Source of the DNA: an uncultured SAR86 cluster bacterium
GTDB taxonomy: Bacteria > Pseudomonadota > Gammaproteobacteria > Magnimaribacterales > D2472
Length of the DNA: 38,935 nt
Reading direction: 5' to 3'
Assembly (NCBI GenBank): GCA_902509965.1
Contig: CABWZP010000011.1
Location: 1-38,935, forward strand
Made by a program: the position numbers and the translations under genes. The notes beneath the pieces were generated by a model. It was given only the letters and a program-made list of their open reading frames with translations, had not been told where the DNA came from and ran no database searches. Shown one piece after another: positions 2,481 to 36,618 of the stretch (its first letter is position 1; each line of letters opens with the position of its first letter).

Positions 2481-3570
2481 TTGGATTAAAAGAAAAAATA
2501 CCAAAATTGTCAATGTTGGAGGAGTGCCTGTTGGTGGTAAAAATCCAATAGCAGTTCAATCAATGACAAATACTGACACATGTGACGTCATCTCAACTGT
2601 TAATCAAATTAACGACCTTCAGGCTGCTGGAGCAGACATTGTTAGAGTTTCTGTTCCAGGTTTTGAAGAAGCTTCAGCATTTAAAGAGATAAGAAAAGCA
2701 GTTAGCATTCCTTTGGTTGCAGATATCCACTTTGATTATAAAATTGCATTAGAAGTTGCAGACACTGCTGATTGCTTAAGAATTAATCCAGGCAATATTG
2801 GTAAAGAGGATAGGGTAAGAGACGTTATTCAATCTGCAATTGATAATAATGTTCCTATAAGAGTTGGTGTTAATGCAGGTTCAATGGAAAAAGACCTTCA
2901 AAAGAAATATGGAGAACCGAATGCAGATGCTCTAGTAGAATCTGCCTTACGACATGTAGATATTTTAGATAAATTTAACTTTGAAAATTATAAAATGAGT
3001 TTAAAGGCCTCAAATATTGAAATGACCGTTGATGCATATAGAAAGATATCAAAAATTATTGATCAACCTCTTCACCTAGGAATTACAGAGGCTGGAAGTT
3101 ATAGAGCTGGAACTGTTAAATCATCTATAGGAGTAGGCATGCTTCTGTCAGAAGGAATAGGCGATACAATTAGAATTTCATTAGCTTCTGATCCAGTAGA
3201 TGAAATAAAAGTCGGTTGGGACATATTAAAAAGTCTTAATATAAGAAGTAGAGGAGTTAAAATTATTGCTTGCCCAAGTTGCTCAAGACAAAATTTTAAT
3301 GTTATTGAGGTTGTAAATGCTCTTGAAGAAAGATTTGAAGATATTTCTGATGACATAGAGATTGCTATTATAGGCTGCTATGTCAATGGTCCAGGAGAAT
3401 CTAAGGCAGCTGACATTGGTCTGACGGGAGCCTCTCCAAAAAATTTACTATATATTGATGGTGTTCCTGATAAAAAAATTGCCAGTGAGCATTTAATTGA
3501 TGAACTTGAGCATCAGGTTAGAGAAAAGCTATCATCTAGAAATGATAGTAATGTTATTGTAAGGGGCTAA
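2473..3570 (+). CDS. ispG: 4-hydroxy-3-methylbut-2-enyl diphosphate synthase (flavodoxin/ferredoxin) IspG
   Basis: IspG performs the penultimate step of the MEP isoprenoid pathway, reducing cyclic MEcPP to HMBPP with a [4Fe-4S] enzyme. The 365-residue protein shows the N-terminal TIM-barrel segment ([22 protein letters not shown]) and the C-terminal cluster domain with Cys267, Cys270 and Cys302 and the catalytic Glu309 in CYVNGPGES. All positions correspond to the E. coli enzyme with a shift of about three residues. The ATG overlaps the end of rodZ by 8 nt and the stop is directly followed by the hisS ATG. The next and last MEP enzyme, ispH, lies in the same window at 31436-32392. Confidence 0.98.
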
Positions 3571-4815
3571 ATGGACAAAATTAATTCATTAAGAGGTATG
3601 CCAGATTTTTATTCTGATGCTTTAATCAGCTGGACTCCTGTTGAGAATAAGTTAGAGGAGATCTTTAGAGCTTTTTCAATTAGTGAAATAAGAACACCAA
3701 TTATGGAATACACAGATTTATTTAAAAGATCAGTTGGCGACACTTCAGATATTGTAAATAAAGAAATCTACTCATTTAATGATAGAAACGATCAAAGCAT
3801 TAGTCTTCGACCTGAAGGAACAGCCGGGGTTATTCGTTCTGTTATAGAAAAGAAATTAGATCAACAGCAATCTAAGTTTTGGTATATGGGCCCGATGTTT
3901 AGATATGAGAGACCTCAAAAAGGAAGATATAGACAGTTTCATCAAGCAGGAATTGAGTTTTTAGGTTATCAAGAGGGACAAGCAGATTTTGAGCTAATAG
4001 CATTAGTATGTTCAATTGTTAATGGTTTAGATATAAAAAATGCAAAGTTAAAAATTAATCACCTGGGTGATAAAGATTCAAAGATTAAGTTTGCGAGATC
4101 TTTAGTTAAATTTTTAGAGCCATATAAGGATCAAATGGATGAAAAAGACCTAGAAAGACTTAATAAAAACCCACTACGGATTTTAGATTCAAAAGATAAG
4201 AAGATTCAGGAGATTCTAAAAGATGCACCTTCGCTAAGTGATTTTATTTCTGATTCTGCTAATTCGCTACTTTCTACAATTCAAAAAACATTTGGTGATC
4301 AATGCATCATAGAAATTGATAACAAACTTGTAAGAGGACTTGATTACTATACTGGCTTAGTTTTTGAAGCTTGTTCTTCTGATTTAGGGGCACAAGATGC
4401 TTTTATAGGAGGAGGCAGATACGATAATCTTGCAAACGCCCTAGGAGGCAAAGACATGCCAGCAATAGGGCTTGCAATAGGTCTAGAAAGATTAATATCA
4501 ATCTCATCAGTCTCTAAATTAGATGAAAAAAAGGTAGTCTTTATAAGTTCTACTAGCAATATAGCGCCATTAGCATTTAAAATAGCGAACCAGTTAAGAA
4601 TTACCAATTCTAAAATCTCATTAGATATGGATTTAACTGATAGCAGTATTAAAGCTAAATTAAGAAGAGCTAATAAAACAGATGCTAGTCACGCATTTAT
4701 CTTTGGCGATGAGGAGATGAGCAATAAAAGAGTTATTGTTAAATCTCTTTTAGAAGATACTGAGCAGGTAAGCATGAGTATTGATGAATGTATAGATTTC
4801 TACAAAGAGATCTAA
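3571..4815 (+). CDS. hisS: Histidyl-tRNA synthetase
   Basis: This class II synthetase charges tRNA-His in the cytoplasm. The 414-residue protein contains the family elements in order: the LRGMPDFY start, LRPEGTAG (79-86), motif 2 FRYERPQKGRYRQFHQ (110-125), the histidine-specific RGLDYYTG (255-262), GGGRYD (280-285) and motif 3 ending in GLERL (304-308). A roughly 90-residue C-terminal anticodon-binding domain follows. The ATG starts at the base after the ispG stop with no spacer, so translation is probably coupled. Length and order (ispG-hisS-yfgM-bamB-der) are standard for the group. Confidence 0.99.
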   Translation: MDKINSLRGMPDFYSDALISWTPVENKLEEIFRAFSISEIRTPIMEYTDLFKRSVGDTSDIVNKEIYSFNDRNDQSISLRPEGTAGVIRSVIEKKLDQQQSKFWYMGPMFRYERPQKGRYRQFHQAGIEFLGYQEGQADFELIALVCSIVNGLDIKNAKLKINHLGDKDSKIKFARSLVKFLEPYKDQMDEKDLERLNKNPLRILDSKDKKIQEILKDAPSLSDFISDSANSLLSTIQKTFGDQCIIEIDNKLVRGLDYYTGLVFEACSSDLGAQDAFIGGGRYDNLANALGGKDMPAIGLAIGLERLISISSVSKLDEKKVVFISSTSNIAPLAFKIANQLRITNSKISLDMDLTDSSIKAKLRRANKTDASHAFIFGDEEMSNKRVIVKSLLEDTEQVSMSIDECIDFYKEI

Positions 4816-20625: not shown

Positions 20626-21285
20626 GTGAACCATTTCTTAAAGCCTCAGTTTATGAAGTTGGGGAAGGGTGGAGCATTTTTTAAACCTCAATATATAAAT
20701 CTTTTTGGAAAAAATATTTCAATAGATAATTATCCAACTCTTATTGGAGCAAAAGATGCCAATATCCAGTTTACAACTTGGAATATAGACAAGTGGGATG
20801 GAAAATTAGATATTGGCAAGTATGTTCTTATAACACCTGGAGTTCGCATTATGGCAGCTGAACATATTACAATTGGCGATGCTTGTATGTTTGCACACGG
20901 TGCTTACATATCGGATGCCGATTGGCATGGAATTTATGATAGATCGGAGCCAGTGGGAAACACCAAACCTGTAGTTCTTAAAGACAATGTCTGGATAGGC
21001 GACAGTGCTATTGTTTGCAAAGGGGTAACAATTGGAGAAAATAGTATTATTGGTGCAGGCGCAGTGGTTACAAAAGATGTACCACCTAATTCTATTTTTG
21101 CTGGAAATCCAGCTAAGTTAGTAAAAGTTTTAGATGGAAATGAAAACTTTGTTTCGAGAAAAGATTTTTTTAGTGATCCAAAAAAACTTGCAGAAGACTT
21201 TGATGCATTAGATAAGTACTCTTTGGGAGAAAATTCATTTTTAGGCTGGATTCAAAGTATTTTTTGGCCAGATAAAACCAATTGA
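20626..21285 (+). CDS. Hexapeptide-repeat (left-handed beta-helix) acyltransferase, function unknown; true start probably upstream at 20563
   Basis: The protein has repeated hexapeptide turns (IGDACM, VWIGDSAIVCKGVTIGENSIIGAGAVV, then TKDVPPNSIFAGNPAKLVKVLD) of the LbetaH O-acyltransferase type. The segment HGAYISDADWHGIYDR holds the likely catalytic His. The acceptor is unknown; serine, sugar or lipid acetylation are all possible. GTG at 20626 is the first conventional start (219 residues) but has no Shine-Dalgarno sequence. The same frame is open upstream to 20545 and encodes RKDNRPYWLKKISSRINRYY, which looks like real protein. An AGGAG (20552-20556) lies 6 nt before an ATC codon at 20563, so initiation at ATC (240 residues) is plausible. 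The stop overlaps the pdxB start. Confidence 0.85.
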   Translation: MNHFLKPQFMKLGKGGAFFKPQYINLFGKNISIDNYPTLIGAKDANIQFTTWNIDKWDGKLDIGKYVLITPGVRIMAAEHITIGDACMFAHGAYISDADWHGIYDRSEPVGNTKPVVLKDNVWIGDSAIVCKGVTIGENSIIGAGAVVTKDVPPNSIFAGNPAKLVKVLDGNENFVSRKDFFSDPKKLAEDFDALDKYSLGENSFLGWIQSIFWPDKTN

Positions 21286-22373
21286 TTAATATTATTGCAG
21301 ATAGTGATATACCTAATTTAGATGAATATCTGAAAATCACTATTGATGAAAATTTATTTAATATTAACTTCTTAAATTTTAAAAAAATTAATCCAAAAAC
21401 TATTAAGGCTTGTGAAGTTTTATTAGTAAGATCAACAACTAAAGTTGATAAATCTCTTCTGCAGGATTCGAATATAAAGTTTGTTGGTTCTGCAACTGCA
21501 GGAATTAATCATTTAGATACAAATTACTTAAATGCAAATAATATAAAATGGAATTACTCACCTGGATGTAACTCATCATCTGTAGCTCATTATGTATTTT
21601 CAGTTATCGCAGAGCTTATAGATAAAAAAGAAATGAATTATAGCTCCAAGATCGGAATTATTGGATATGGAAATATAGGTAAAAAAGTTGCAAAATATCT
21701 TGATTCTATTGGCTTTACAGTTGTTTGTAACGATCCATTTTTGAAAAATATAAATTTAGTAAATTTTAATAAGATACTTGATTGTGATTTGATAAGTCTT
21801 CATGTTCCTTATACTGAGAACGGAAAACATCCTACCAAGAACTTAATTGATAAAGATACGCTTTCTAGATTAGATAATAAAATACTTATCAATTCTTCTA
21901 GAGGCGGAGTGGTTAACGAAGAAGATCTATTAAAAAATAGCACTATAAAATACGTAGCTGATGTATGGAATAATGAGCCTCTGCCATCAAAAGCTATAGT
22001 TAAAAAATCTTTAATTGCATCCCCTCACATTGCTGGATATAGCAAACAAGGAAAATTGAATGGATCTTTAGCAATAGCCTCTGCAGTTTCTAAATACATT
22101 GAAAGTAAAAAGGAAATGAATCCTTTTAACTTCATTGATCCATCTGAAAAAAAATTCATAGAAGTCCTACCAACACCCACCAAAATACTCCCATATCCTC
22201 TTAGTGTCTTTAAGGAAAGTTTTGATATACGATCTATATCAAATGAAATGAAAAAATTATTTAATCAAAATATTAAGGATGAAGCACTATCTGATAATTT
22301 TAATAAAATGCGTTCATTACATCCCATTAGAAACGACTATGACACTAGAGAGTTTGAAGAAAAATATAATTAG
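21282..22373 (+). CDS. pdxB: Erythronate-4-phosphate dehydrogenase PdxB
   Basis: PdxB oxidises 4-phosphoerythronate in the DXP-dependent pyridoxal phosphate pathway. The 363-residue protein (E. coli 378) belongs to the D-2-hydroxyacid dehydrogenases. It has the NAD site GIIGYGNIG (125-133) and the catalytic triad Arg207 (SSRGGVVNEEDLL), Glu232 (WNNEP) and His249 (ASPHIAGYS). The N-terminal IIADSDIPNLDEYL and the C-terminal dimerisation region resemble PdxB more than glycerate or formate dehydrogenases. The start is a TTG at 21282, overlapping the acyltransferase stop by 4 nt (TTGA), so translation is probably coupled. Confidence 0.93.
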   Translation: MINIIADSDIPNLDEYLKITIDENLFNINFLNFKKINPKTIKACEVLLVRSTTKVDKSLLQDSNIKFVGSATAGINHLDTNYLNANNIKWNYSPGCNSSSVAHYVFSVIAELIDKKEMNYSSKIGIIGYGNIGKKVAKYLDSIGFTVVCNDPFLKNINLVNFNKILDCDLISLHVPYTENGKHPTKNLIDKDTLSRLDNKILINSSRGGVVNEEDLLKNSTIKYVADVWNNEPLPSKAIVKKSLIASPHIAGYSKQGKLNGSLAIASAVSKYIESKKEMNPFNFIDPSEKKFIEVLPTPTKILPYPLSVFKESFDIRSISNEMKKLFNQNIKDEALSDNFNKMRSLHPIRNDYDTREFEEKYN

Positions 22374-22397
22374 TTATATTAATAACTTGTTTTATTA
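22372..22397 (+). terminator. Weak candidate intrinsic terminator after pdxB
   Basis: Perfect 6-bp arms AGTTAT (22372-22377) and ATAACT (22382-22387) with a 4-nt loop overlap the pdxB stop codon and are followed by a T-rich stretch (TGTTTTATT). The stem is nearly all A-T, so it would be weak and may be a chance palindrome. Confidence 0.3.
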
Positions 22398-22399
22398 AA

Positions 22400-22414
22400 T
22401 GAGAATCATTATCA
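22400..22414. promoter_or_regulatory. Near-consensus Fur box
   Basis: TGAGAATCATTATCA matches the 7-1-7 Fur consensus (TGATAATnATTATCA) at 13 of 14 defined positions; only one arm position differs (G for T). It lies 178 nt upstream of the winged-helix gene start and just after pdxB, in the only sizeable gap of this region. Whether Fur acts here, and on which transcript, is inferred. Confidence 0.55.
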
Positions 22415-22484
22415 TCTAAAAAGTTAGACTTATTTCACTCAAACTATTTCTTTGTAGAATTTATATAAATTAATTATATACATC

Positions 22485-22512
22485 TTGTTTACATTGAATA
22501 GATAGGTAAAAT
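22485..22512 (+). promoter_or_regulatory. Candidate promoter of the winged-helix gene
   Basis: TTGTTT (22485-22490) and TAAAAT (22507-22512) are spaced by 16 nt and would place the transcription start near 22519, giving a leader of about 70 nt. Each hexamer departs from consensus in an AT-rich context, so confidence is limited. Confidence 0.35.
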
Positions 22513-22518
22513 AATATT

Positions 22519-22534
22519 ATGAGAGTTATCTCAT
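22519..22534. promoter_or_regulatory. Perfect dyad at the predicted transcription start (operator candidate)
   Basis: ATGAGA (22519-22524) and TCTCAT (22529-22534) are perfect inverted repeats around GTTA. The site sits about 7 nt past the -10 candidate, where a bound dimer would block transcription. The left arm shares ATGAGA with the Fur-box copy at 22399-22404, so it could be a degenerate second Fur site or an operator for the downstream winged-helix protein itself. Confidence 0.4.
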
Positions 22535-22591
22535 TTTTACTGGCATCTAAGTTGCATTATAAATATTATTACTAATTAAAATATAAAAAAA

Positions 22592-22978
22592 ATGACTAAT
22601 AAATTAAAAAGGGCACAATCAATTATTGAAAGCATTTATTCTGCAACAATTGGCAATTCATCCAATCCTGCTTCAATGAGTTTTTATCAATCTGATACGT
22701 ATAGATTCTTTTTTTTGCTTTCGTTTATGCATGAACACTTTAAAGGTAGCGAGATCTCTCAAGAGTTTGCCATTTCATTAGTTCCAAAGAAATATGCTTC
22801 TAGAATTAAAAGACTTCAGGTATTAAAGAGCTCTGTTCAGCTTGGTTACATTAATGAAGAATCATCCTTGACTGATAAACGTAGAAGGATTTATACACCT
22901 TCAGATTCAATGATTAATGATTTTTTAAATATGACTGAGTCAGTGTCAAAGATTCAAGATTCAAAAAAAGCTTCTTAA
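22592..22978 (+). CDS. Small winged-helix (MarR-like) DNA-binding protein, family not recognised
   Basis: I do not recognise a named family. The 128-residue protein has a predicted helix YRFFFLLSFMHEHF (about 32-46), a helix-turn-helix-like stretch with a basic recognition helix (KKYASRIKRLQVLKSSVQLGYI, about 65-87), and a wing NEESSLTDKRRRIYTPSD ending in a C-terminal helix. The D-K-R-R-R-x-Y-x-P-S wing is like that of MarR-type regulators. No enzymatic or ligand domain is visible. The ATG has no Shine-Dalgarno and is preceded by an A-rich leader. It stands alone, with a Fur box and a start-site dyad upstream, and faces selO tail-to-tail 1 nt away. Likely a transcription regulator with iron-linked expression; targets unknown. 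Confidence 0.7.
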   Translation: MTNKLKRAQSIIESIYSATIGNSSNPASMSFYQSDTYRFFFLLSFMHEHFKGSEISQEFAISLVPKKYASRIKRLQVLKSSVQLGYINEESSLTDKRRRIYTPSDSMINDFLNMTESVSKIQDSKKAS

Positions 22979-22979
22979 A

Positions 22980-24413
22980 TTAGGAGGAGCAAGATAAGCC
23001 TATGCTTGTTGCCCATTCTGGTGCTTTCTGAGCATATTTTTCATATTCTAGATTCTCTTCATAGGGATTTGTAATTAATTTCATAAGAATATCTATTTCT
23101 TTATACGACCCTTCCTCAGCTTGATCTATTGCATTTTGTAACAAATAATTTCTTAATATAAATTTGGGATTTATTTGATTCATTTGTGCAATCCTTGAAT
23201 TAATATCTGTAATTTCAATGTCATGCCTTTCTTTAAATTTTTGTGACCAATTTTCAAGACCATTATCAACTTCAATACTATTATTAGCATCTAAAATATT
23301 ACTTAGACTTCTAAATGTCCGTGTAAAATCTAATTTTTGAACTTCCATGATGTTCAGTAATTCTTGAACTAAAAGCTCGTCAGTATCACAAGTCTCATTA
23401 AGGCCTAATTTATTTTTATATAAAGCAAATAATCGTTTAGTATATGTTTTTTCATACATGGACATGATACTTTTTATCTCTTCCTTACTAATTAGGTTTT
23501 CAAATGTATGAGCTAATGCGGAGCAATTCCACATCCCTATATAGGGCTGATTTTGATATGAGTATCTACCTGATGAGTCAGAAAGATTGCATATATGAGA
23601 AGGATTGAAGTTATCTATAAATCCAAAAGGCCCATAATCTAGTGTTTCTCCAAGAATAGACATATTATCTGTATTCATAACACCATGACAAAACCCAACT
23701 GATTGCCAATTAGCAATTAAAGAAGCAGTCCTAGTAACTATATTTTCAAGAAGATATGAATATTTATTATTTAATTTATTTTCATCTGGAAAATATTGAG
23801 AAATAGCATAATTGCATAATTCTTTATGCCTATCAAAAAGACCATCATGATAAAATTTTTCAAAACTTCCAAATCTGATATGAGTTTCAGCTGTCCTTGC
23901 TATCATTGCTGCAGTTTCAGATTTTTCTCTATAAACAATATCATCACTTCCAAAAATCATTAATGATCTTGATGAGGGTATTCCTAGTCCATGCATAGCT
24001 TCACCGCATAAATATTCTCTTAAGGATGATCTTAAAACAGCTCTTCCATCTCCAAATCTTGAATATGGCGTTTTTCCTGAACCTTTTACATGAATATCCA
24101 AGTATTTATCTTTTACTTTAATTTCTCCAAGTAAAACACCTCTGCCATCACCCAACTGAGGAACATATTGACCAAACTGATGTCCTGCATAATTCATTGA
24201 TATCGCTTGTACATCTGGAATTTGGATAGAGCCATTAAATAGAAGCATTAAATCTTCACAGCTTCTTTCAGAAAGACCAAATTCATTTAGTAAGATTTTA
24301 TTTACATGAATAAGAAAAGGATTATTTAATGGTTGTTGAAGTTGTTTAGAGAAAAAATCATGATTCAAACTCGCATATGAGTGCTGTTTTAAGATTTTTT
24401 TTATACTTTCCAT
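22980..24413 (-). CDS. selO: SelO / YdiU protein adenylyltransferase (AMPylase)
   Basis: SelO is a pseudokinase-fold enzyme that transfers AMP from ATP to Ser, Thr or Tyr of target proteins and is linked to oxidative stress. The 477-residue protein (E. coli 478) has the family landmarks MNYAGHQFGQYVPQLGDGR (73-91), the nucleotide-site KGSGKTPYSRFGDGRAVLR (110-128), and the catalytic Asp249 in HGVMNTDNMS. The metal-site Asp259 lies in LDYGPFGFID. The C-terminus ends SCSS with Cys475, the position of Cys or Sec in SelO proteins, and Cys275 corresponds to its disulfide partner in E. coli. Its stop is adjacent to that of the winged-helix gene; it diverges from the queuosine transporter. Confidence 0.97.
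   Translation of the reverse strand: MESIKKILKQHSYASLNHDFFSKQLQQPLNNPFLIHVNKILLNEFGLSERSCEDLMLLFNGSIQIPDVQAISMNYAGHQFGQYVPQLGDGRGVLLGEIKVKDKYLDIHVKGSGKTPYSRFGDGRAVLRSSLREYLCGEAMHGLGIPSSRSLMIFGSDDIVYREKSETAAMIARTAETHIRFGSFEKFYHDGLFDRHKELCNYAISQYFPDENKLNNKYSYLLENIVTRTASLIANWQSVGFCHGVMNTDNMSILGETLDYGPFGFIDNFNPSHICNLSDSSGRYSYQNQPYIGMWNCSALAHTFENLISKEEIKSIMSMYEKTYTKRLFALYKNKLGLNETCDTDELLVQELLNIMEVQKLDFTRTFRSLSNILDANNSIEVDNGLENWSQKFKERHDIEITDINSRIAQMNQINPKFILRNYLLQNAIDQAEEGSYKEIDILMKLITNPYEENLEYEKYAQKAPEWATSIGLSCSS

Positions 24414-34950: not shown

Positions 34951-36618
<1,668 letters not shown>

Follow-up and report, generated by a model that had tools for sequence, protein, structure and literature searches.

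The regulator locus

SAR86 is an abundant, largely uncultured lineage of the surface ocean with small genomes and few regulators. The window analyzed here is a stretch of 38,935 nucleotides, contig C11 of a 1.08-Mb genome (G000) that is 81.66% complete. Its gene of interest is an ORF of 128 aa at 22592-22978 on the forward strand, with a start ATG at 22592. The upstream neighbor is a dehydrogenase ORF (21282-22373), and a Fur-like box begins 26 nt past its stop and ends 177 nt before the regulator ATG. The ORF following the regulator (22980-24413) lies on the opposite strand, and the regulator is thus the sole evident forward-strand target of the box. This agrees with the first-pass annotation, which named a small DNA-binding protein as the only gene downstream. 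The region contains the following features:

22387-22415, forward strand: candidate sigma70 promoter P1, TTGTTT (22387-22392), 17 nt, TATCAT (22410-22415), found by eye
22400-22414, forward strand: Fur box of the 7-1-7 type, TGAGAATCATTATCA, exact match, 13/14 defined positions, strict form found 5 times versus 0 in the control; shared stretch including flanks about 22397-22419
22485-22512, forward strand: candidate sigma70 promoter P2, TTGTTT (22485-22490), 16 nt, TAAAAT (22507-22512), found by eye
22520-22533, forward strand: perfect dyad TGAGA-GTTA-TCTCA, a possible operator, from a scan of the window
22541-22556, forward strand: sigma54 -24/-12 element TGGCATCTAAGTTGCA, from a motif scan; precedes the orthologue in 40/47 genomes
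22592-22978, forward strand: predicted MarR-fold winged-helix DNA-binding protein, 128 aa, of a family without a name, from ORF, alignment and model

Three congeners were compared with the window, namely G064, G065 and G063, whose loci are L005, L006 and L017, respectively. The Fur box overlies the -10 of candidate P1, and the same layout is found in L005 and L006. The TTGTTT of candidate P2 is unchanged in all four congener sequences. A consensus scan of the region found 3 promoter-like sites versus 3.6 in shuffles, which leaves P1 and P2 without statistical support, and P1 was not among the calls of the scan. The dyad is the single match in the window, with a chance expectation of 2.25 at up to one mismatch; it is intact in L017 and differs by one arm base in L005 and L006. 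Across six loci viewed, genes for MatE, a hexapeptide transferase, msrB, murJ and ribF (named from Pfam and translations) recur near the regulator, with extra genes between these neighbors in some.

The regulator protein and its paralogue

The regulator gene was detected in 47 of 107 genomes of the family, and searching 203 genomes of the order returned the same 47. Among 369 genomes across the class, only two matched, the window's own and another of the 47. Relatives of the protein were collected from 21 loci, 18 from SAR86 and three labeled as gammaproteobacteria only. Across these family, order and class genomes, all copies of the regulator fall within this SAR86 family. An alignment of 21 sequences, the window's protein and those of 20 of the 21 loci (L016 was left out because of N), has 46 invariant columns.

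No Pfam or NCBIfam family matched the protein above cut-off. The best Pfam hint is SarA/Rot (E 0.016, below cut-off), seen in 5 of 21 members. A profile search of solved structures gave one weak match to a designed protein (E 0.14), PHROGs gave a single match of unassigned function (E 0.024), and PADLOC gave none. The predicted structure has a mean pLDDT of 77.8 and a pTM of 0.69. Foldseek with this model returned top rows that are nearly all MarR-type, the best being 3bpx_B (E 1.8e-3, probability 1.00), with no row at E <0.001. VIA-align placed MepR 4l9n_B at Z 9.1 (rmsd 4.2, 98 aligned positions), with mixed winged-helix folds ranking alike (MukBEF, Z 9.3). The model thus predicts a MarR-like fold. 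Likeness to the MarR/SlyA superfamily is structural, through Foldseek, with sequence families below cut-off.

The window's genome also encodes a paralogue of 123 aa (contig C36, match at 3443-3796; L171:3437-3808), which is likewise found in G064, G065 and G034. It sits directly after an RND-type efflux gene (named from translation) in G000 and G065, and inspection by eye showed no sigma54 element upstream of the paralogue in these two genomes.

A Fur box restricted to one lineage

The sequence at 22400-22414 is an exact match to TGAGAATCATTATCA and differs from the motif TGATAATNATTATCA only at position 4. It had been described as the only Fur-like site noticed in the window, and other window matches to TGAGAATCATTATCA do carry two or three mismatches, the best of them at 2120-2134 inside ORF 1734-2480. 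Whether such a site could arise by chance in AT-rich DNA depends on the stringency applied. At up to two mismatches, TGATAATNATTATCA occurs at 47 places in the genome versus 35 for the reversed control, which is near noise. At up to one mismatch it occurs at 7 places including 22400-22414, and the strict form TGAKAATSATTMTCA occurs at 5 places versus 0 for the reversed control. The other four strict sites adjoin genes for a peroxidase, a TonB receptor, a solute-binding protein and a proteorhodopsin. The receptor site lies between the TonB-receptor gene and a DoxX-like gene (named from translation), and the solute-binding-protein site lies at the start of that gene. All five strict sites have flanks near AAATGA...TCATCTAA, which are also kept in the congeners L005 and L006. 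According to a PF01475 match (E 7.3e-40), the window's genome encodes a Fur protein, whose presence rests on this match, fur not having been seen in a one-frame read of L120. The box thus lies near a promoter, itself a candidate found by eye, in a Fur-encoding genome. Fur likely binds at 22400-22414, given the enrichment of the strict form, the shared flanks, the uptake- and redox-type neighbor genes and the encoded Fur. We consider it unlikely that the site arose by chance as a palindrome in AT-rich DNA: the counts at up to two mismatches favor that explanation, the strict-form counts and shared flanks speak against it, and so does the retention of the box in L005 and L006.

Conservation of the box is poor. 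A match of at least 12/14 lies upstream of the regulator in three of the 47 genomes, the window's, G064 and G065, of which the last two count as one observation because their upstream DNA is identical. The box is kept at this threshold in two of the 46 other genomes and absent before the orthologue in 44, including the congener G063, in which the entire Fur segment is missing. Absence of the box before orthologues had been named in advance as evidence against iron control of the regulator, and this is largely what was found. Parts of that proposal stand, since Fur is encoded, the strict motif is enriched and the flanks are shared. As the main control, iron is further disfavored by a sigma54 element 126 nt further downstream that is much better conserved (40/47). 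Judged from sequence, the gene may plausibly be under iron control, but only within this lineage. Even here, and nowhere else, iron would be no more than a secondary input, because the box is missing before 44 of 46 orthologues and the sigma54 element is present in 40 of 47 genomes.

A conserved sigma54 element

Orthologue promoters have TTGGCAYNNNNNTTGCAT in common, which is a sigma54 signature. The element of the window, TGGCATCTAAGTTGCA at 22541-22556, was overlooked by the first-pass annotation. It retains an intact TGGCAT-N5-TTGCA and agrees with what is expected of a sigma54-dependent promoter, GG at -24 and GC at -12 at a fixed spacing in a TGGCAC-N5-TTGC context. The available part of PMC3224663 gives TGGCACG-N4-TTGC as the sigma54 consensus. 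The element precedes the regulator in 40 of the 47 genomes, which are related and do not represent 40 independent events, and these span six genera by genus labels. The seven genomes without it are G033, G034, G064, G065, G104, G107 and G123. The rest of the 21 loci, 426,350 strand-bases in all, contains 21 matches to this motif, or 0.012 per 250 nt (~1%). Dinucleotide shuffles of the regulator promoters contained it in 1 of 2250 cases; the shuffles used 45 promoters, without L167 and G022, and the 40/47 count covers all 47 genomes. The 16 letters of the glnA element also recur exactly at 36288-36303 (forward strand), a sigma54-type match within ORF 34975-36618. This match is probably due to chance, and its position inside a coding ORF means that single sigma54 matches prove little.

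The machinery to use such an element is encoded. PF04963 matches revealed rpoN in 20 of 22 genomes and in 86 of the 107 genomes of the family; in the G064 assembly the gene is broken by a stop. The RpoN of the window's genome has its activator-interacting, core-binding and DNA-binding domains. The one PF00158 match in that genome is a full-length NtrC-type protein with receiver and Fis-type domains, so that rpoN and an activator ATPase occur together. Its gene adjoins a histidine kinase gene (ntrB) and a glutamine synthetase gene (glnA). Other genomes have weak second PF00158 matches in ORFs of about 745 aa, which resemble Clp ATPases. In the window's genome, sigma54 elements also lie upstream of glnA and of Gcw_chp-glnK-amtB, and in other genomes they also precede genes for TonB-receptor-like and small secreted proteins (named from translations).

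Binding sites for NtrC are less evident. The glnA gene of the window's genome has the NtrC-type site GCACTTTTATTGTGC. A perfect NtrC-type site (GCAC-N7-GTGC) was found upstream of the regulator in none of the 47 genomes, and the best match before the window's regulator is 4/8. Matches of 7/8 occur in five of the 47 (G022, G094, G104, G107 and G115; the window is not among them), and in G104 and G107 they overlap an apparently decayed sigma54 element. Counted by rows, which include duplicates (L029 and L055 are one site), sites of at least 7/8 accompany glnA in 4/4 rows and one receptor-like gene in two, compared with 0/18 for the regulator, 0/15 for Gcw_chp, 0/10 for the main receptor group and 0/3 for amtB. 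The missing site does not single out the regulator, because the Gcw_chp and amtB promoters are also without one. Dyads of 5 nt shared upstream of the element in 40 promoters are mainly TATAT/ATATA repeats in AT-rich DNA, as assessed against a mononucleotide-shuffle control, and yielded no usable candidate site. By eye, the glnA genes of genus g8 (L178:3896-4041 and L182:3473-3609) appear to have NtrC-like half sites and no sigma54 element upstream, unlike those of g1 and g9.

The regulator and rpoN show a weak co-occurrence that is confounded by genus. We found rpoN in 43 of 47 genomes with the regulator and in 43 of 60 without it, assuming G119 to be the one unlisted miss. The four genomes with the regulator in which rpoN was not found (G086, G113, G118 and, by subtraction, G119) are all drafts. 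All ten genomes of genus g3 (G023-G032) are without rpoN and without the regulator, which looks like a loss of the whole sigma54 system. In genera g5, g6 and g10, rpoN is present and the regulator gene absent.

Nitrogen as the probable main input

Overall, we suggest that the regulator is probably mainly a nitrogen-stress regulator of a second tier, comparable to Nac, to which iron control through a Fur-repressible promoter was added in one lineage. In most genomes, sigma54 RNA polymerase would transcribe the gene from a promoter shortly upstream of the start codon, and the protein would be made only once an activator ATPase is switched on. Nitrogen shortage would render NtrC active, and NtrC would open the sigma54 promoter and induce the regulator. 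The protein would then repress or activate sigma70 genes, the part that Nac plays in enteric bacteria. Iron shortage would also free the candidate Fur-covered sigma70 promoter P1 further upstream in the window's lineage. We favor this arrangement of a sigma54/NtrC-driven gene, with a Fur-covered sigma70 promoter in the window's lineage, at somewhat better than even chances. The assignment of NtrC is by elimination, as it is the only full-length sigma54 activator found in the genome.

The good Fur box with shared flanks and the encoded Fur would also fit an iron-responsive regulator mainly under Fur, with the sigma54 motif being vestigial or without a role in this genome. In L005 and L006, the sigma54 element is lost and the box kept, and iron-only control may exist there. 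Such a relationship is rather improbable for the window, given that the box is missing in 44 of the 46 other genomes with the regulator and that the window's TGGCAT-N5-TTGCA is intact though losable, as L005 and L006 demonstrate, in a genome with rpoN and ntrC. If the sigma54 promoter is real, its activator could still be an unrecognized protein or respond to another signal than that of NtrC, as no perfect NtrC-type site precedes the regulator in a genome whose glnA carries GCACTTTTATTGTGC. This is quite unlikely, considering that the genome has just one full-length sigma54-activator domain and that the Gcw_chp and amtB promoters likewise are without sites of at least 7/8. Small RNAs repressed by Fur are known, and in the 177-nt gap after it the box could drive a short regulatory RNA or a peptide encoded independently in the leader (22416-22591), with the regulator being incidental. 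We regard this as very improbable, because both the length and the sequence of the leader are poorly conserved between congeners, no Rfam family matched above threshold (one sub-threshold match), and no terminator-like site was found. A short ORF with its ATG at 22519, considered by eye as a leader peptide, is not kept in sequence in L005 or L017.

Relation to known regulators

Nac is a LysR-type protein. Its gene is NtrC-activated and its product both activates and represses sigma70 genes in E. coli, according to the available part of PMC6299236. The SAR86 regulator resembles Nac in that it is a DNA-binding protein whose gene has a sigma54 element, with NtrC as the only full-length activator found in the genome. 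Unlike Nac, it has a predicted MarR-like fold, 128 aa and no LysR-type Pfam match. By analogy, the regulator might at most work like Nac, and it is not a member of that family. Another comparable case is the MarR-family gene XF1354 of Xylella fastidiosa, the only regulatory gene before which the authors' scan placed an RpoN site, according to the available part of PMC3224663. The likeness is by description, and the Xylella site was predicted in one genome, whereas the SAR86 site is kept in 40 of 47; a Fur box goes unmentioned for XF1354 in the same part of that source. Fur-repressed regulator genes share the overlap of a Fur box with a candidate promoter, but the SAR86 box is lineage-restricted and paired with a sigma54 promoter. 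Xylella thus offers a precedent for an RpoN site predicted before a MarR-family gene, from which the SAR86 case is set apart by its protein family, its conservation and its Fur/sigma54 pairing. Literature searches, with most subscription journals outside their scope, returned nothing on SAR86 with nitrogen regulation and NtrC, and the papers on SAR86 and MarR concern other subjects by title. For SAR86 with sigma54 or rpoN, none of the matches listed was on SAR86.

The congeners differ in their input modules. The window has the Fur box and the sigma54 element, L005 and L006 have the Fur box only, and L017 has the sigma54 element only. G065 has an intact rpoN and has kept its glnA sigma54 element, and the loss of the element before its regulator is therefore local. 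The sigma54 element is found in five other genera, none of which has a good Fur box. Tentatively, and at somewhat less than even chances, a streamlined ocean lineage may have evolved its own counterpart of Nac, a family-specific MarR-fold regulator passing sigma54/NtrC nitrogen control to housekeeping promoters. Its sigma54 and Fur-sigma70 modules would have been gained and lost separately, leaving one congeneric species with nitrogen, others with iron and the window's species with both as inputs. If true, the congeners would show regulator inputs being swapped, and a regulator linking nitrogen limitation with iron limitation would make it possible to test how genomes such as those of SAR86 respond to the limiting nutrients of the ocean.

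Another of the strict Fur sites concerns a different function. The Fur-type palindrome TGAGAATCATTCTCA lies 52 nt upstream of the proteorhodopsin gene (L004:1501-1515, corresponding to G000:C6:51022-51036). Five of the 48 rhodopsin loci examined have an upstream box of at least 12/14, the others being L213, L215, L216 and L226. These sites suggest that proteorhodopsin may be iron-controlled in some SAR86 lineages.
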